From an uncultured SAR86 cluster bacterium (GTDB taxonomy: Bacteria; Pseudomonadota; Gammaproteobacteria; Magnimaribacterales; D2472), in contig CACJKN010000006.1 of the NCBI GenBank assembly GCA_902594005.1, positions 1-59,843 on the forward strand: a DNA stretch of 59,843 bases. Direction: 5' to 3'. The translations under genes and the position numbers were made by a program. This document shows, piece by piece, positions 8,947 through 58,866 of the stretch; position 1 is the stretch's first letter, and the number at the start of each line of letters is the position of its first letter. The notes under the pieces were generated by a model. That model made no database searches. It was not told where the DNA came from and was given only the letters and a program-made list of their open reading frames with translations.

Positions 8947-11547
8947 ATGTCAAAATCACTTGTAATTGTAGAGTCCCCTGCAAAGGCAAAGACGATATCA
9001 AAATATCTTGGTAACGAATATATTGTTAAATCAAGTGTAGGTCATATCAGAGATTTACCAAAGGGAAAATCAAAAGCAAAGAGACAAAATTCAATCCCAA
9101 AAGATGCTAGTCCTGAAGAAAAGGCTAGATTAAAAAAAGAGCAAGAAAGAAGAAGGATAATTAGGAGAATGGGTGTAAATCCTGACGATGGATGGTCTGC
9201 CAATTATGAAATTATCCCTGATAAAGAAAAGGTAATAAAAGATTTAAGGAAAGCTTCAAAGGAAGTAGAAAAAGTTTATCTTGCTACTGATCTTGATAGA
9301 GAGGGAGAGGCTATAGCTTGGCACTTGAAAGAAGCTTTAGGAAAAAATAAATTTGAATATCACCGAGTAAGATTTAATGAAATTACAAAAAGTTCAATAT
9401 TAGAATCTTTCTCAGATCCTAAGGAAATAGATCAAGATCTAGTAAATGCCCAACAAGCAAGAAGATTTCTTGATAGGGTGGTAGGCTTTGAACTGTCTCC
9501 ATTATTGTGGAAAAAAATTGCAAGAGGTTTATCTGCAGGAAGAGTTCAATCTGTTGCATTAAGATTGCTTTGCGAAAGAGAAAAATTAATTTCACAATTT
9601 CAACCAGAGGAATTTTGGGAAGTTTCAGCAACTTTAAAAGATTTTAATCATGAAGAAATCTTATTTAAGTTAAATAGAAAAAAAAGCGATCCTCTTCTAA
9701 AAGAGGGTGAAGCGAAGAAAATAGAGGAGCTCGTAGGTAGTTCAAGTTTAGAAATATCTGAAATCACTAAAAAACCTACTACAGTTAAACCAAAAGCACC
9801 CTTTATAACATCAACTCTTCAGCAGGCCGCTAGCTCAAAGTTGGGTTTTGGGGTCTCAAGAACAATGCGAGTTGCCCAAAAGCTTTATGAAGCTGGAAGA
9901 ATCACCTATATGAGAACCGATGCTCCTAGCTTAAGTAATGATTCAATTGAAGATGCAAGATTATTTATTAAAGATACTCTTGCTGAAGAATACCTAACGG
10001 AAAAACCGCGAATATATTCAGGGAAAGAAAATGCTCAAGAGGCGCATGAGGCAATAAGACCAACAAGCGCAAGCTTAACTCCCGAAAAGCTCAGCGGTCA
10101 CTCAGAAGAAGAAGTAAAATTATACGACTTAATTTGGAGACAGTTTATTGCATGCCAAATGCCTGATGCAAAATATTTATCAATTAATGCAAAAGTTGTT
10201 CTTGATGATTATGTTTTCAGTGCAAGAGGAAGAGAGGTAATTTTTGATGGTTATACAAAAATATCTTCACAAAATGCCAAAAAATCAGATGAAGAAAATC
10301 TTCCAAGTTTAGAAGAAGGGCAAGTTTTAAAATTGGTCGAAATAAAGAATGAGAAAAAGTTTACGAAGCCTCCTGCTCGATTCTCCGAGGCAGCACTTGT
10401 AAAGGAGCTTGAAAGCAAAGGAATAGGAAGACCATCAACATATGCAGCAATTATTTCTACAATTCAGGCTAGAGGTTATGTGAAGCTTGAAAATAAAAGA
10501 TTCTTTGTAAATAAAATTGGCTTGATTGTTTCTGACAGGCTTATAGAAAGTTTCAATGAAATTATGGATTATGATTTTACAGCCAATTTAGAAAATGAAC
10601 TTGATGAAATAGCGTCTGGCAATCTTGAGTGGAAATCAGTTTTAAATAAGTTTTATCAAACATTTCAAGATGATCTTAATAGTGCAGGATCGGCTGAGGA
10701 TGGAATGAAACCAAATGATCCAACGAAGACCGATATAGTTTGTCCCTCATGTAACAAAAGTAATATGCTAATAAGAAACTCGGCAAATGGAGTATTTTTG
10801 GGCTGTGAGGGTTATCACAAGTCCGGTGATAAGCAATGTAAGCACACCATGAATCTCATAAGTGGTGATGAGGCAATAAGCGTTGATGACCAAGAGGAAG
10901 CCTCAAATCTTTTTATCAAAAAACGATGTCATATATGTGAAACAAGTATGGATAACTATTTAATAGATGAAAACAGAAAGATTCATGTATGTGCAAATAA
11001 TCCTGAATGTTCAGGATTTCTTTTAGAGGATGGTAAATTTAAGATTAGGGGATATGACGGCCCAACTCTTGAGTGTCATAAGTGCGGAGCAGAAATGCAA
11101 TTACAAACTGGAAGGTTTGGTAAATATTTCCTTTGTCAAAATGATAATTGCGGAGCAACAAGACAGTTAATGAGAAACGGTGAACCCAAACCAATTGTTA
11201 TGGATCCAATAAATACAAACATTGCATGTGAAAAGGTCGAAGATATATTCCTCCTAAGAGATAGCTTAAAAGGACTTTTCTTGGCAGCTAGTCAATTTCC
11301 AAAGAATAGGGAAACAAGAGCAATAAAGTCAGCTGAATTAAAAGTTATTGATGAAGTAAAGGAACTTCTACCTGAAAAGCATCATTACCTTATAGATGGT
11401 CCTGATAATGACCTGGATGGATCACCCTTGGTAATTAGATATAACAAAAATTTAGACATTCATTATCTTTCCGCAGAAAAAGATGGCAAGAGGACTGGAA
11501 ATAACTACTTCTTCGAGGAGGGTAGTTGGCAGAGAAAAGAAAAATAA
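8947..11547 (+). CDS. topA: DNA topoisomerase I
   Basis: SLVIVESPAKAKTISKYLG; TDLDREGEAIAWHL; AGRITYMRTDA; C-terminal Cys4 zinc fingers. Confidence 0.97.
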   Translation: MSKSLVIVESPAKAKTISKYLGNEYIVKSSVGHIRDLPKGKSKAKRQNSIPKDASPEEKARLKKEQERRRIIRRMGVNPDDGWSANYEIIPDKEKVIKDLRKASKEVEKVYLATDLDREGEAIAWHLKEALGKNKFEYHRVRFNEITKSSILESFSDPKEIDQDLVNAQQARRFLDRVVGFELSPLLWKKIARGLSAGRVQSVALRLLCEREKLISQFQPEEFWEVSATLKDFNHEEILFKLNRKKSDPLLKEGEAKKIEELVGSSSLEISEITKKPTTVKPKAPFITSTLQQAASSKLGFGVSRTMRVAQKLYEAGRITYMRTDAPSLSNDSIEDARLFIKDTLAEEYLTEKPRIYSGKENAQEAHEAIRPTSASLTPEKLSGHSEEEVKLYDLIWRQFIACQMPDAKYLSINAKVVLDDYVFSARGREVIFDGYTKISSQNAKKSDEENLPSLEEGQVLKLVEIKNEKKFTKPPARFSEAALVKELESKGIGRPSTYAAIISTIQARGYVKLENKRFFVNKIGLIVSDRLIESFNEIMDYDFTANLENELDEIASGNLEWKSVLNKFYQTFQDDLNSAGSAEDGMKPNDPTKTDIVCPSCNKSNMLIRNSANGVFLGCEGYHKSGDKQCKHTMNLISGDEAISVDDQEEASNLFIKKRCHICETSMDNYLIDENRKIHVCANNPECSGFLLEDGKFKIRGYDGPTLECHKCGAEMQLQTGRFGKYFLCQNDNCGATRQLMRNGEPKPIVMDPINTNIACEKVEDIFLLRDSLKGLFLAASQFPKNRETRAIKSAELKVIDEVKELLPEKHHYLIDGPDNDLDGSPLVIRYNKNLDIHYLSAEKDGKRTGNNYFFEEGSWQRKEK

Positions 11548-51492: not shown

Positions 51493-52708
51493 ATGCAGCA
51501 AGTTATAGTTCAAAAATTTGGAGGCACATCTGTTGGTTCGGGAGAGCGAATAGCTGCTGTCGCTGAAATAATTAAAAAAGAGGCTGAGATGAACAGAGTT
51601 GTTGTTGTTGTTTCAGCAATGGCAGGAGAGACTGATAGACTTATAGAACTCTCAAAATTATTTGGAGATAATCCGAATAAAAGAGAATTCGATGCCTTGA
51701 TATCAACTGGCGAGAAAGTAAGCGCATCTCTTTTAGCAATGGCCCTCAACTCTCTTGGTTTGAAAGCTAAATCTTACTCAGCTGCTCAAGTTTCACTTAA
51801 AACTACATCCAACTTTTCAAAGGCAAAGATTTTAGATATAGATAAAACAAAAATGGAAGAGATTCTTGCAGATGGCTCAATTCCAATTATTACAGGTTTC
51901 CAGGGAATAACTGAAACTGGAGAAGTTACCACTTTGGGTAGGGGTGGATCTGACACTACTGCTGTTGCAATTGCTGCATCTCTTGATGCAGATCGTTGCG
52001 ATATCTATACGGATGTTGATGGTATATATACCACAGACCCAAGAATTGTTCCCAATGCTAAAAAAACTAGATACAATTTCTATGGAAGGTATGCTTGAGC
52101 TTGCAGGTCAAGGAGCTAAAGTCATTCAAATAAGAGCCGTTGAATTTGCAAATAAATTTAAGGTTCCTGTGAGAGTCCTATCGAGCTTTTCATCAGGTGC
52201 TGGTACCATGATAACTTTGGAGAATGAAACTATGGAAAACGCAGAAATTTCAGGAATTGCCTTTCAAAAAGACCAAACAAAAGTAACTTTTACTGCTGTG
52301 GAAGATACTCCAGGCATTGCATCAAAAATACTTGGCCCGCTTAGCGAAACAGATATAAAAGTTGATGTTATTGTTCAGAATGTTGGAATTGAAGGTAAGA
52401 CGGATTTTACTTTTACCATTGCTAGTGAGGAAAAAAGTTTATTGGATGAAGCAATTAATAAGATTCAAAAATCTATAAACTATAAAGAGGTAATAATTGA
52501 TGATGAAATTGCTAAAGTTTCCATTGTTGGTGTTGGAATTAGATCTCATGCTGGAGTTGCAGCTAAAGCTTTCCAAGCGTTATCTGAAAATGAAATAAAT
52601 ATTGGCATGATTAGCACTTCCGAAATTAAGTTGACATTGGTTATCGAAAAAGATGATCTTGAAAAAGCCGTAAAAGTCTTACATGATGTATTTGAGCTAG
52701 ATAAATAA
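51493..52708 (+). CDS. lysC: Aspartate kinase, interrupted by an apparent frameshift at the A7 run 52060-52066
   Basis: ORF 51493-52098 ([15 protein letters not shown]...[13 protein letters not shown]) continues in another frame as [28 protein letters not shown]... with ACT domains to 52708. Confidence 0.9.
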
Positions 52709-54042
52709 TGTATGACTTAGTCCTTAAAAACTGCAATGTTATCAATGAAAATGTTGAATCACAGGTAGATATTGGAATTAAAAATCAAAGAATTGAAAAA
52801 ATAGCTGCTTCGATTGATTCAGAATCTTCTAAAGAGCTAGATTTATCAGGAAAGCTTGTGATTCCTGGCCTTATTGATGATCAAGTTCATTTTAGAGAAC
52901 CAGGCCTTACCCACAAGGGTGAGATTGCAACTGAATCAAAGGCCGCTCTTGCTGGGGGTGTAACAAGTTATTTTGAGATGCCTAATGTAAATCCTAATAC
53001 CTCTACTATTGAGAATTTAGAGAAAAAGTTTGAAATGGCTTCAACTAAATCTGTTGGCAATTACTCATTTTATCTAGGTGCAACAAATGACAACATTGAA
53101 GAGATAAAAAAACATGATCCAAAAACCTCATGTGGCCTCAAAGTATTTATGGGAGCATCCACTGGCGATTTACTGGTTGATAAATATGAATCGCTTGAGA
53201 AGATTTTTGAACATTGTCCTACAAATATTGTTACTCATTGTGAAGACCCTAAAAGATTAGTGGAAAATGAGAAACTATATAAAGAAAAGTATGGTGATAA
53301 GCTTGAAGCTGCTCATCATGCAGTCATAAGAGACGAAGAATGTTGCTATTTATCAAGCTCATTAGCAGTTGGCTTGGCAAAAAGGTTTGGCTCTAATTTA
53401 CATGTTCTTCATCTTTCCACAGCAAGGGAAATGGAATTATTTACAACTGATCCAATTGAAAATAAACATATTACTGCTGAGGGTTGTGTTCATCATCTAA
53501 CTTTTAGCGATAAAGATTATGAAGAGCTTGGTAATTTTATTGTTTGTAATCCTTCAATTAAAACAGAGGTAGACAGACTTGGGATTATTGAAGCTGTAAA
53601 AGCAAATAAAATTGATATTTTCGCAACCGACCATGCTCCTCATACTTTTGAAGAGAAAAGCCAAAAATATCCAAATATTCCCGCAGGTATTCCTTTAGTC
53701 CAGCACTCTCTTCAGATGCTACTCGAGTTTTATTTTGATGATATCTTTTCTTTAGAAATGATTGTTGAAAAGTCTAGTCACAATGTCGCAAAGAGATTCA
53801 ATATTAAAGACAGAGGATTCCTCAGGGAAGGGTACTTTGCAGATATAACATGTGTGGATATGGATAAAACATATACTGTAAATAAAGAAAATATCTTACA
53901 TAAATGCGGGTGGTCTCCTTTGGAAAATAGAACAATGCGTGCATCAATTCATGCAACTATCCTCAACGGAAATATTGCTTTTAAAGAAGGGCAATTTTCT
54001 GAGTCTTTGAATTTTGGTCATAGACTAGAATTCGATAATTAG
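52708..54042 (+). CDS. pyrC: Dihydroorotase
   Basis: PGLIDDQVHFREPGLTHKGEIATES; ATDHAPHTFEEK. Confidence 0.94.
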   Translation: MYDLVLKNCNVINENVESQVDIGIKNQRIEKIAASIDSESSKELDLSGKLVIPGLIDDQVHFREPGLTHKGEIATESKAALAGGVTSYFEMPNVNPNTSTIENLEKKFEMASTKSVGNYSFYLGATNDNIEEIKKHDPKTSCGLKVFMGASTGDLLVDKYESLEKIFEHCPTNIVTHCEDPKRLVENEKLYKEKYGDKLEAAHHAVIRDEECCYLSSSLAVGLAKRFGSNLHVLHLSTAREMELFTTDPIENKHITAEGCVHHLTFSDKDYEELGNFIVCNPSIKTEVDRLGIIEAVKANKIDIFATDHAPHTFEEKSQKYPNIPAGIPLVQHSLQMLLEFYFDDIFSLEMIVEKSSHNVAKRFNIKDRGFLREGYFADITCVDMDKTYTVNKENILHKCGWSPLENRTMRASIHATILNGNIAFKEGQFSESLNFGHRLEFDN

Positions 54043-54069
54043 AATCGTTAAGCATTATAAAATTGTCTG

Positions 54070-54075
54070 TATAAT
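54070..54075 (+). promoter_or_regulatory. Putative -10 element (TATAAT) of the original tRNA-Ser promoter
   Basis: Perfect TATAAT nine bases upstream of the tRNA-Ser 5' remnant. Confidence 0.55.
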
Positions 54076-54084
54076 AAAAAACTC

Positions 54085-54123
54085 GGAGAGTTGGCTAAGT
54101 GGTCGAAAGCACCTCCCTGCTAA
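54085..54123 (+). pseudogene. Truncated 5' half of tRNA-Ser(GCT), ends at anticodon loop
   Basis: GGAGAGTTGGCTAAGTGGTCGAAAGCACCTCCCTGCTAA matches intact tRNA-Ser at 58395 with 2 mismatches, then diverges. Confidence 0.92.
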
Positions 54124-54140
54124 ATCCATCAAAGTATATA

Positions 54141-54152
54141 CCGAATAACTAA
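54141..54152 (+). repeat. 12-bp direct repeat, left copy (CCGAATAACTAA)
   Basis: Identical to 58234-58245. Confidence 0.7.
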
Positions 54153-54309
54153 CCATCCTACAAAACCTACTACTACAACATTTACAACTTACTCAAACTT
54201 ATACTTATGTACATGATGCAACATATAAACAAGCAATCATGACACAATTTGAGACCCAATAATGAAGAGTGCTAACATGTATGTACGTAATAAAATTAAA
54301 CATATATTT

Positions 54310-57300
54310 ATGAAGAACTTTCACATTTACCTAATAGTTTCAACCTTCATCCTTGCAAGTTGTGGTGGAGGTGGTGGTGGAGGCGGTGGAAGCACTCCAG
54401 CAACCCCAACAACTCCACCTTCAAGCGTAAATTTATCGGCCGACCCTACCTCAGTTCTTTTAGAAAGCACTTCAACACTTACTTGGTCATCAACCAATGC
54501 CACTTCTTGTTCCGCATCTTGGACTAGTCAAACAGGTACCTCTGGTTCAGAATCAGTAACCATTACTACAGTAGGCAACAATAGCTTTTCAATTTCTTGT
54601 AGTGGCGATGGTGGATCAGGATCTGCTTCAGTAACCGTTGAAGGTTACAGAAATACTGATGGGGTAGTTGTAGATGGTTATATTTCTGGTGCTGAAGTCT
54701 GTATCGATGAAAATGATAACTGGATTTGTGACTCTACTGAATCTTCAACCACCTCAGATAATGACGGTAAATTCACTATTAAATACGCCAACGGCAATTT
54801 AGTATCCATAGGTGGTACCGATTTAGATTCCCAAACCCTTTTAGATAATCTTTTAATTACGCATAAACTTACCGGTCACTCGGACTTTAAAGCGGTTACA
54901 CCAGTCACCTCAGTTGCTGCTTTTATGGAGGATGTTTCACTAGTCAATGCAGCATTGGGTATAGATGCATCAATTGATATCTTTACCTTTGATCCGGTTG
55001 CTAACAAAGGCGATGGTGGTATTAATGATTATTTGTATGAGAAGGGTAATCAGCTAACCGTTCTTGCTTTTGCGTTGCAGAATATAACCAATAATCTCAA
55101 TACAGCAATGGACACCACCCAGGATTACTTTAAAGCAATTACTGAGGAGATAGAAAAAGAATATGCCGAAACTGAAACTAAAGTAGATATTGAAACCGAG
55201 GCTTTTGTCACTAAAGTTCTTGATAATGTTATTGCAGCAAAATCAGTTACTATTGATGAGGCGGCTAAATCGAACACGGTAAAAGCACTTGCAGGAGTCA
55301 TGCCAGTTATTGAAGTTAAAGCCGAGGATGACTTGACCACAGCTGTCATACGTTTTGCTATCTCAACATTACAAAGCGATATCCAAGCTATAGCTAACGG
55401 GACTGCAACTGCTGAGATAGTAACTAGTTATACCAGCGATATTTTGACCTATATAGCAGAAGATCAAAATATAGATGCTGATAAAATAACACCTAATATT
55501 AGTGCTATAGCTGATAGCGCAACCACCTCCGAAGATACCTCTGTAACTATAAATGTTGTTGCAAACGACTCTTATGTAACAACAGCTCCTGTAACAGTAA
55601 CAACAAGTAATGGAACCAATGGAACAGCTACAATTGCTGAGTCATCTCCAGAACAGATTACTTATAACCCTGATCCAGATTACAACGGTACTGATACCTT
55701 TAGTTATACCATCACCCAAGGAGACAAAACCTCTAGCGCTGATGTCACAATAACCGTTGAAGCAGTTAACGATGAACCATCCATTGATGTAGCATCTACC
55801 ATTCAAGTCGATGAAAATCAAACAGCGGTTACCACTGTTTCAGTTTCAGATGTAGACGGAGATGAATTAACGCTAACATTAGGTGGTTCAGATGCCGATA
55901 GTTTTAATTTATCTGATGAGAATGTCTTAACTTTTAAAGAAGCACCGGATTATGAAACCAAGACTTCTTATTCAATTTCTTTGAATTTAACTGATGGTGA
56001 ATTTGCAGAAAATAAAACTATAGATATTCTTGTGAACGATGTACAAGAAGTTTTCATATTAAATGATAATTTTACAAATGATGAGGATTCTATTTCTTTA
56101 ATAGATGTTCTAGCTAATGATTCATATGTAGGATCAACATTCAACCTTAGTGTTGAAGACGCTATTAATGGTGAATTAACTGTTGTTTCGTCAGAAGGTA
56201 AAACAAAACTTAATTTTGTACCAAATTTGAATTGGTATGGTTCTGAGGAGCTAACTTATAATTTGACTGCAGGCAATGAAACTAGATCTGGTAAAGTTCA
56301 ACTTGAATATCTTCCAGTAAATGATCCACCTGTTTTTAGCTCTATCAATAGAACAATTGAAGTTTCAGTTGTAGTAAACGATGATGGTTCAGGCAATGTT
56401 TATGTTATAGAAGATGTTCAGAAAAAAAGTTTAACACTGGAACCTGGATCAACTTATACATTTAATCATCCTTCTGAACATCCCTTAAGATTTTCTACAA
56501 CTCCTGATGGCACCCATGGTGGAGGTAATTCATATGACAATGATGTTGATACTTCAACCGATGGAGTAACGATTATAAAAGTTACAGATAATACTCCTGT
56601 AAACCTATACTACTATTGCTCAATTCATGAGGGTATGGGAAGTGATTCCTCTAAGACAAATGAAACATCTGCAAAATTTATCTTTGAAGAAAATGCATTG
56701 TCTGATATCTCCTTAATTGAAGCTACAGATGTAGATAATGAAACATTAACTTATTATTTAAGCGGTGATGATAAAAATTTATTTACTGTTTCAACATCGG
56801 GATTATTAAAATTTGTATCATCGCCTGATTATGAAAATCCCTTGGATGCAGATAAAGATAGTATTTATAATTTTTCTTTAAACGTTTCAGATGGTGAGTT
56901 ATCAATTTCAAAAGAAATAAATGTTCCAATAAAAGATATTAATATTGCTGCTAATCAAGTGGGTCAGACAATCACAGGAAATGTTAATAGCAATAATAAT
57001 AAATGTATTCAATGCTTCACAACTAATATAGATATTGATGAAGATGGAGATACTTTTGTAATTGGCGCCTATAGAACATTTCCAAATTTAGGTTCCGGTT
57101 CAGGAAAGGTGTATAAAAAAATTAATAATTCGTGGTCAGAGATGTCTTCTGCTACAAATCAATTTAATGGAGCAGCGCAAGGAAATGGTTTTGGTAGCAG
57201 AGGTATGAAAATCTCTCACGACGGACTTACAATCATTGGTGGCGGCCAGCAAAACTCAATAGGATATGTCTTTCCATTTGAATATTACGACAAAGGTTTG

Positions 57301-58149
57301 GGTGCGGGTTTAGAGTGGAGAAGAAGAGGAGACTATGTTGATTATGGGTACATCTATAAATCTTCGATAGGAAAAACCTTAACAGATATTTCAATTAGTG
57401 GTGACGGAGATGTAATGGGATATGTATATGGAGGCAAAGCAATATTACATGACAATAATAATGTTATAGGTTCTACATATAATTCAAATCCTATTTTTGA
57501 ATCCTTCAATACAAACGGATTAGATACATCTGCTATCTCTATAAATTTTGATGGTTCATATGTAGCCTTATCTCAACAATATGAGGATGTGAGAATTTAT
57601 AAGTTTAATAGTGGCGAATATTTACAAATAGGAAATAATTTAACAGCATGCTCTGGTATTACTGGAGACAGCTACTTTGGAAGTAAAATTGCAATTTCAA
57701 ATAATGGCAAAACAATTGTTGTATCTGATATATGGGGCGATAGCCCTGAATCAAGTAGCATTGATAATGAAGGTGCCATTTGTGTTTTTGAATATATCAA
57801 CAATAGTTGGGTTCAAAAGGGTTCTACAATTTATGGAGATAATTTAAATGATAATATGGGTAATAGTCTTGATATTAGCGGGGATGGAAAAAGAATTGCA
57901 TTGGCATCATTCAGAGCAGAAGAATCTAAAGGTGAAGTAAAAGTATTTGAATGGAGTAACTTAGATAATGATTGGAAGCAAACAGGTTTTGATATCATTG
58001 GTGAAGAGTTAGAGCAAGACATGGGATATATTTCCCTCAGTGGAGATGGTAAAACTATTGTTATTACTGGGGCTGGTGAGAAACAACCAACAACAGGTGC
58101 CCCTAAAGATGGCGGAAAAATAAGAATTTATAATTTACCAATTAACTAG
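54310..58149 (+). CDS. Large multidomain surface lipoprotein: polyGly linker, Ig-like domain, cadherin/tandem-type repeats, cupredoxin-like segment, 7-repeat propeller-like C-terminus
   Basis: Lipobox ILASC followed by nine Gly; VNLSADPTSVLLESTSTLTWSSTNATSC; NVVANDSY/YNPDPDYNGTDTFSY repeats; YYYCSIHEGMG; seven xIxxDGxxI repeats. ORF start is 54262; the ATG at 54310 fits the signal peptide better. Confidence 0.85.
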   Translation: MKNFHIYLIVSTFILASCGGGGGGGGGSTPATPTTPPSSVNLSADPTSVLLESTSTLTWSSTNATSCSASWTSQTGTSGSESVTITTVGNNSFSISCSGDGGSGSASVTVEGYRNTDGVVVDGYISGAEVCIDENDNWICDSTESSTTSDNDGKFTIKYANGNLVSIGGTDLDSQTLLDNLLITHKLTGHSDFKAVTPVTSVAAFMEDVSLVNAALGIDASIDIFTFDPVANKGDGGINDYLYEKGNQLTVLAFALQNITNNLNTAMDTTQDYFKAITEEIEKEYAETETKVDIETEAFVTKVLDNVIAAKSVTIDEAAKSNTVKALAGVMPVIEVKAEDDLTTAVIRFAISTLQSDIQAIANGTATAEIVTSYTSDILTYIAEDQNIDADKITPNISAIADSATTSEDTSVTINVVANDSYVTTAPVTVTTSNGTNGTATIAESSPEQITYNPDPDYNGTDTFSYTITQGDKTSSADVTITVEAVNDEPSIDVASTIQVDENQTAVTTVSVSDVDGDELTLTLGGSDADSFNLSDENVLTFKEAPDYETKTSYSISLNLTDGEFAENKTIDILVNDVQEVFILNDNFTNDEDSISLIDVLANDSYVGSTFNLSVEDAINGELTVVSSEGKTKLNFVPNLNWYGSEELTYNLTAGNETRSGKVQLEYLPVNDPPVFSSINRTIEVSVVVNDDGSGNVYVIEDVQKKSLTLEPGSTYTFNHPSEHPLRFSTTPDGTHGGGNSYDNDVDTSTDGVTIIKVTDNTPVNLYYYCSIHEGMGSDSSKTNETSAKFIFEENALSDISLIEATDVDNETLTYYLSGDDKNLFTVSTSGLLKFVSSPDYENPLDADKDSIYNFSLNVSDGELSISKEINVPIKDINIAANQVGQTITGNVNSNNNKCIQCFTTNIDIDEDGDTFVIGAYRTFPNLGSGSGKVYKKINNSWSEMSSATNQFNGAAQGNGFGSRGMKISHDGLTIIGGGQQNSIGYVFPFEYYDKGLGAGLEWRRRGDYVDYGYIYKSSIGKTLTDISISGDGDVMGYVYGGKAILHDNNNVIGSTYNSNPIFESFNTNGLDTSAISINFDGSYVALSQQYEDVRIYKFNSGEYLQIGNNLTACSGITGDSYFGSKIAISNNGKTIVVSDIWGDSPESSSIDNEGAICVFEYINNSWVQKGSTIYGDNLNDNMGNSLDISGDGKRIALASFRAEESKGEVKVFEWSNLDNDWKQTGFDIIGEELEQDMGYISLSGDGKTIVITGAGEKQPTTGAPKDGGKIRIYNLPIN

Positions 58150-58233
58150 ATCAAATAAAGTTTTATAAGATTAATGCTCTTATAAAGCTTAATAATGGTG
58201 GGAGCTGGGTTTGAACTCAGAGCCTAAAAATGT

Positions 58234-58245
58234 CCGAATAACTAA
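58234..58245 (+). repeat. 12-bp direct repeat, right copy (CCGAATAACTAA)
   Basis: Identical to 54141-54152. Confidence 0.7.
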
Positions 58246-58394
58246 AAGATAAAACACGAACTATAACGGATATAGAGCGAACATAAGACTTTTAACTGGT
58301 TGTGACATAACTTCATGACATAAATGCGAAAAATTGCTAATATTTAGGAAGCAAAATCCTGGAACTGTTGCTACAATGCCACTTCTAACGATTC

Positions 58395-58484
58395 GGAGAG
58401 TTGGCTGAGTGGTCGAAAGCGCCTCCCTGCTAAGGAGGTATACGGGTAACTGTATCGAGGGTTCGAATCCCTCACTCTCCGCCA
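58395..58484 (+). tRNA. tRNA-Ser (GCT), encoded CCA
   Basis: GGAGAGT...CCTCC-CTGCTAA-GGAGG...long variable arm...GAGGGTTCGAATCCCTC-ACTCTCC-G-CCA. Confidence 0.97.
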
Positions 58485-58500
58485 TTTTTTGGAGAAAAAT

Positions 58501-58866
58501 ATGAATGATAATGAAATGATAAGGGATTGTATTCAGTTATATTTTGATGGATGTTATGAGTCAGATCCTGAAAAAATTAAAGCTTCTTTTAATCCAAATG
58601 CTTCCATAACAGGGTATCTCCCAGATGGTTTTCATGAAATGAGTGTTGATGATTTTGCAGGTTTTGTAGCATCACAACAACCATCACCGATGGAAAATGG
58701 TGATGAAAAGATGTTAGAAATTCTTTCATGTGAAGTTTATGGAAATACTGCAGCTGTTAAAGTTAGAGAAGCATACCTAGGAATGATTTTTGTAGACTGC
58801 TTATCCTTTTTAAAAAAAGATGATGAATGGAAAATTTATACAAAGCTTTTCCATGTTGAATCTTAA
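58501..58866 (+). CDS. SnoaL/NTF2-like (putative lumazine-binding-like) protein
   Basis: IRDCIQLYFDGCYESDPEKIKASFNPNASITGY...VKVREAYLGMIFVDCLSFLKKDDEWKIYTKLFH; GGAG RBS before ATG 58501. Confidence 0.75.
   Translation: MNDNEMIRDCIQLYFDGCYESDPEKIKASFNPNASITGYLPDGFHEMSVDDFAGFVASQQPSPMENGDEKMLEILSCEVYGNTAAVKVREAYLGMIFVDCLSFLKKDDEWKIYTKLFHVES

Follow-up and report, generated by a model that had tools for sequence, protein, structure and literature searches.

A single large lipoprotein gene inserted at tRNA-Ser(GCT) in a SAR86 bacterium, with the 5′ half of the tRNA repeated

The stretch of SAR86 DNA analyzed here (59,843 nt, referred to as the window) carries, at 54085-58484, a large lipoprotein gene lying between an intact transfer RNA (tRNA) gene, tRNA-Ser(GCT), and a second copy of the 5′ half of that tRNA. 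The intact gene occupies 58395-58484 on the plus strand, which is also the strand of the half copy, the cargo gene, and the two neighboring genes, and the right copy alone of the two was called as a gene by ARAGORN. A repeat search of the window paired 54083-54123 with 58393-58433 as a direct repeat (39 of 41 positions alike, 95%; start-to-start distance, 4310), and the left copy aligned with nt 1-39 of the 90-nt tRNA at 95% identity with an E value of 1.3e-11, which rules out a chance match. As a preliminary description of the sequence had stated, this half (54085-54123) carries two changes, identified here as G13A and G27A, and ends at the anticodon loop, its final base being the last base of the loop (CCTCC-CTGCTAA-ATCC, against CCTCC-CTGCTAA-GGAGG in the intact gene). 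The approximately 4.3 kb between the copies was also correctly described as nearly all one coding sequence, a single long open reading frame (ORF) that is open from 54262 to 58149. To the left lies a pyrC-like amidohydrolase gene (52708-54042), and to the right a Lumazine_bd_2/NTF2-like gene (58504-58866), both assigned with Pfam and both native neighbors by comparison with relatives. The preliminary description had called the latter SnoaL; its Pfam family is Lumazine_bd_2 (PF12893), which is NTF2-like.

Seven same-genus genomes (L002, L003, L004, L005, L007, L008, and L010) carry an uninterrupted run of pyrC, a single tRNA-Ser, and the NTF2-like gene. This is the empty site that the preliminary description had proposed to look for, and the outcome it named as fatal to an insertion, the same half-tRNA and gene in all relatives, did not appear. 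In G006 and G005, pyrC likewise lies directly 5′ of tRNA-Ser, with a different right neighbor. When one repeat unit was removed from the window and 54001-54123 was fused to 58434-58520, the joined flanks were alike to the seven empty sites in 197 to 205 columns of 210 to 213. The 84 nt located 5′ of tRNA-Ser in these seven relatives were 90 to 99% identical to the region before the left half (54001-54084, the pyrC end with the presumed native tRNA promoter, now standing before the broken half) but 51 to 54% identical to the region before the right, intact tRNA. The native upstream region is thus at the left copy and a foreign one at the right, which means that both a new 5′ half and the region before it came in with the insert. 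The layout of 54085-58484 is an insertion in this lineage, with the 5′ half duplicated as first proposed, and a tandem duplication is excluded. An ancient, fixed, and immobile tRNA duplication with a gene between the copies is refuted by the empty sites, and by an exact-pattern search the half-tRNA is unique among 204 genomes of the order; we give that account virtually no credence.

An assembly chimera is also a very improbable origin of the layout. In its favor, the window's genome (G000; 0.99 Mb, 79% complete) is split into 30 contigs, and a k-mer assembler could be misled by a repeat this short. However, the left half has two private changes and continues into non-tRNA sequence, so the join did not run through an identical repeat. 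Moreover, both junctions lie within the 59.8-kb contig, and the guanine-plus-cytosine (GC) content fits that of the window.

The left half, which forms the left boundary of the insert, is a decaying remnant of the native 5′ half, and the G-to-A nature of both its changes would be the pattern expected of a copy free of selection. The 5′ half of the intact gene (58395-58433), given the foreign sequence before it, probably arrived with the inserted DNA, whereas the sequence after the 3′ half (58434-58484) is native according to six of the seven comparisons with empty sites made for the right flank. The foreign upstream region presumably holds a working promoter, since tRNA-Ser needs to be expressed. 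A scan for the sigma-70 consensus picked up neither presumed tRNA promoter, native or foreign, and was therefore uninformative.

The insert has a noncoding end on each side, at 54124-54309 on the left, without a match among the compared loci, and at 58150-58394 on the right, which includes the foreign sequence that now precedes the restored tRNA and gave short, weak BLASTN matches only in the 108 family genomes. Both ends contain the 12-bp direct repeat CCGAATAACTAA (54141-54152 and 58234-58245), a length reached in 1 of 300 shuffles, and TGACATAA occurs twice in the right end (58303 and 58316), 13 bp apart. As a speculation, these repeats could be arm sites. Separately, TCTGAGTTCAAACCCAGCTCCCACCA at 58196-58222 on the minus strand, 47 bp past the lipoprotein stop, resembles a worn tRNA 3′ end. 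As a tRNA 3′ fragment, however, it is spaced 3 nt too tightly and matches none of the tRNAs in the compared loci, and we rejected the 3′ end of a transfer-messenger RNA (tmRNA) because the tmRNA of the genus ends differently.

The insert and the window have the same GC content, so the donor may be a relative, as would suit a one-sided homologous capture, the main rival of the explanation proposed below. In such an event, a linear fragment of a related bacterium, with a lipoprotein gene followed by tRNA-Ser, would have been joined on the right by homology between the two identical tRNAs and on the left by illegitimate recombination inside the tRNA of the recipient, with no integrase taking part and the end at the anticodon loop being coincidental. 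The insert contains no recombinase, as this account would have it, and large lipoproteins do lie 5′ of tRNA-Ser with no half-tRNA in two other genera (L031 and L032; on the pyrC side, L052 to L054). Against it, the left junction coincides precisely with the last base of the anticodon loop, and the right noncoding end had no good match 5′ of tRNA-Ser in any of the 108 family genomes. We regard a capture of this kind as rather unlikely, though deserving of some weight.

The cargo (54310-58149) encodes a large mosaic lipoprotein with a lipobox, Big_9 and cadherin-like domains, and a weak FG-GAP match, as judged from the ORF list, Pfam, and comparison within the family. Its start is likely the internal ATG at 54310, which would give a normal lipoprotein signal, MKNFHIYLIVSTFILASC. 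The protein has the features by which we defined the family, namely, an N-terminal module (N-module) with a lipobox, Big_9/cadherin parts, and a variable C terminus. The N-module (the first ~580 to 600 amino acids) is conserved in many family genomes and reaches 79% identity in other genera, above the 58 to 65% typical of PyrC between genera; these pairwise identities suggest horizontal exchange. The C-terminal 405 amino acids have relatives in just two other genomes of the 204 and in a second gene of G000, and their AlphaFold model (predicted local distance difference test score, 38) was discarded. Approximately 120 amino acids near residues 670 to 800 resemble tail-fiber and virion proteins from phages of Pelagibacter and from cyanophages; a search of IMG/VR for the lipoprotein gave no match. 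In the same segment, the motif HPLRFS...YYCSIHEGMG recalls the copper-binding ligands of cupredoxins. Elsewhere in the family, the member in L119 shows a weak metallopeptidase match, and the large lipoproteins of genus g8 that lie 5′ of tRNA-Leu(TAG) look subtilase-like by eye.

We scanned the loci of 40 family members for tRNAs and found the family beside four different ones: tRNA-Ser(GCT) of the window, tRNA-Ala(GGC), tRNA-Leu(CAA), and tRNA-Leu(TAG). Members directly adjoin tRNA-Ala(GGC) in L076, L114, and L118 and lie 0.8 to 1.8 kb from it in L111, L119, and L123; they adjoin tRNA-Leu(CAA) in L110, L116, and L117 and lie 0.5 kb from it in L126. At tRNA-Leu(TAG), a member lies on the 3′ side in L122 and on the 5′ side in L090, L102, and L103 (51 to 85 bp). 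Of the 40 family ORFs, 8 had a tRNA within 200 bp, whereas among the remaining 204 ORFs in these loci 12 did (Fisher P = 0.007, a guide only, as the loci include orthologues; a different start rule gives ten instead of eight). These results point to repeated uptake of one family of large surface lipoproteins by the tRNA genes of SAR86, a group abundant in the ocean, a pattern that we did not meet in the literature searched. In the tRNA-Leu(TAG) loci L173 to L189, the downstream DNA differs in almost every genome, while on the upstream side the gene is largely kept, a pattern like that of an integration hot spot.

A second single-gene insert, of 4.0 kb, was found in G001 (L110:7196-11284, G001:C5), where it precisely fills the interval from the 3′ end of tRNA-Leu(CAA) to a methyltransferase gene. 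Its lipoprotein is 49% identical to that of the window over the whole length, and six other genomes of the same genus have the empty site, with tRNA-Leu(CAA) directly before the methyltransferase gene. In G000 itself, another family member adjoins that methyltransferase gene (L121:1-4716, G000:C11), on a contig that stops within this member and so before tRNA-Leu(CAA). The T loop of the G001 tRNA-Leu(CAA) reads GTTCAAC in place of GTTCGAC, a private G-to-A change.

A complete island with a recombinase of its own is present in L119 (311-10634, G014:C2). There, nt 32-76 of tRNA-Ala(GGC) (311-386) recur at 10590-10634 as a 45-nt copy that differs at one position, and the interval encodes a 519-aa large serine recombinase (Resolvase, Recombinase, and Zn_ribbon_recom domains) in a frame that extends into the tRNA. 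The other cargo consists of the lipoprotein, a Kdo/WaaP kinase, and two glycosyltransferases. At the same tRNA, a remnant of the recombinase lies between the tRNA and the lipoprotein in L111 (242 aa) and L114 (54 aa), and L076 and L118 leave no room for one. These stages indicate that the recombinase can vanish while the lipoprotein stays. Islander held in 2015 that no serine recombinase was known to target a tRNA gene (PMC4383910); the L119 recombinase lies in a tRNA-Ala island with a 3′-half repeat. A recombinase of the same type, 53% identical, is encoded at L154:7648-9224 (G020:C1), where its 3′ end overlaps tRNA-Ala(TGC) on the other strand. A 165-aa protein with no Pfam or PHROG match occurs in L119 (6271-6768), L124, and L154, two of which have the serine recombinase or its island, and it may be a marker of these elements. 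A search for tyrosine recombinases gave mostly two genes per genome, presumably XerC and XerD.

The preliminary description had offered a decayed larger island as one possibility for the window. Such an island would have integrated in the manner proposed below, with the lipoprotein gene and the ends surviving, which makes it a variant of that proposal and not its opposite. The one intact and two truncated recombinase stages at tRNA-Ala, together with the loci without room for the gene, make this history plausible, though unproven. On the other hand, two separate single-gene inserts of one genus, in the window and in G001, have the same bare layout, and no trace of further genes was seen in the insert of the window. 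We put a larger ancestral island at slightly less than an even chance.

Taken together, the seven empty sites, the native and foreign upstream regions, the end at the anticodon loop, the tRNA-bound family, the L119 recombinase, the G001 insert, and the 12-bp repeat are best explained by site-specific recombination at the anticodon loop of tRNA-Ser(GCT) by DNA carrying the lipoprotein gene and a tRNA 5′ half, a mechanism that we hold to be probable with moderate confidence. The incoming DNA, probably circular, would have carried one large surface-lipoprotein gene, nt 1-39 of tRNA-Ser, and an upstream region of its own. A recombinase would have crossed it with the chromosomal tRNA-Ser(GCT) within the anticodon loop. 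This would have moved the native upstream region and 5′ half leftward, and the half would since have been decaying. The imported 5′ half and upstream region would have joined the native 3′ half and kept the tRNA working, with transcription starting from the foreign region, and the recombinase would have been lost after integration or supplied in trans. The preliminary description had suggested much the same crossover, with an attachment site (attP) carrying a 5′ half; the import of the 5′ half agrees with the foreign upstream region, whereas the action of an integrase has no recombinase gene in the insert to go with it.

Several observations weigh against site-specific recombination of this kind. 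The one ORF of the insert encodes the lipoprotein, and no recombinase gene lies inside; no second tRNA copy was found at the G001 insert; and it is the 3′ half of the tRNA, not the 5′ half, that is used in those islands that have a recombinase or a clear repeat. Furthermore, a search with an exact degenerate pattern (the 5′ half of tRNA-Ser(GCT) without the following G), which mutated fragments would escape, found no second such element, the copy of the window being the sole match in the 108 family genomes and in the 204 order genomes, with no match in GTDB contigs or IMG/VR.

Outside the insert, upstream of the pyrC-like gene, the aspartate kinase frame at 51493-52708 is broken into two overlapping ORFs (51493-52098 and 51944-52708), by either a frameshift or a sequence error.

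Among known systems, the L119 island is alike in its lipoprotein family (68% identity over the N-module) and in having a repeated tRNA half with one boundary at the anticodon loop, but it differs in repeating the 3′ half (nt 32-76), in its 519-aa serine recombinase, and in its additional cargo. Tycheposons of Prochlorococcus and other pelagic bacteria are described as tRNA-bound cargo units of 4 to 200 kb (PMC10872708). The insert of the window likewise borders a tRNA in a streamlined genome of an ocean bacterium; tycheposons are described with a tyrosine recombinase (xerD-like) in the element, which the insert lacks. According to a review of tyrosine recombinases in archaea, the integrases of pTN3-like archaeal elements use the tRNA 5′ half, expression of the restored tRNA then comes from the side of the element, and such use is seldom met in bacteria (PMC8371274). 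The insert resembles these elements in that the restored tRNA is read from element-supplied sequence but differs from them in being bacterial and in having nothing comparable to the tyrosine integrase gene that they have on board. In Islander, 159 of 3919 islands had a 5′ tRNA gene fragment and 3760 a 3′ fragment (PMC4383910), and the end of the anticodon loop is one of the known crossover sites within tRNA genes (PMC4383910, PMC8371274). As in the 5′-fragment islands of Islander, the insert is bracketed by an intact tRNA gene and a displaced fragment that ends at the anticodon loop, on the same strand and in the correct order and orientation, with the 5′ fragment upstream; and the interval, at 4310 bp, is longer than the required minimum of 2 kb and is absent from relatives, as seen at the seven empty sites. 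Islander also requires an integrase gene in the interval, where the window has single-gene cargo, the lipoprotein ORF only, and the insert is therefore not an island by that strict definition. It works like a tRNA island outside the definition. Insertions with a 5′ tRNA half, which mirror ordinary tRNA islands, are known but uncommon, and the window provides a clean bacterial example in which the displacement of the native upstream region by a foreign one can be seen.
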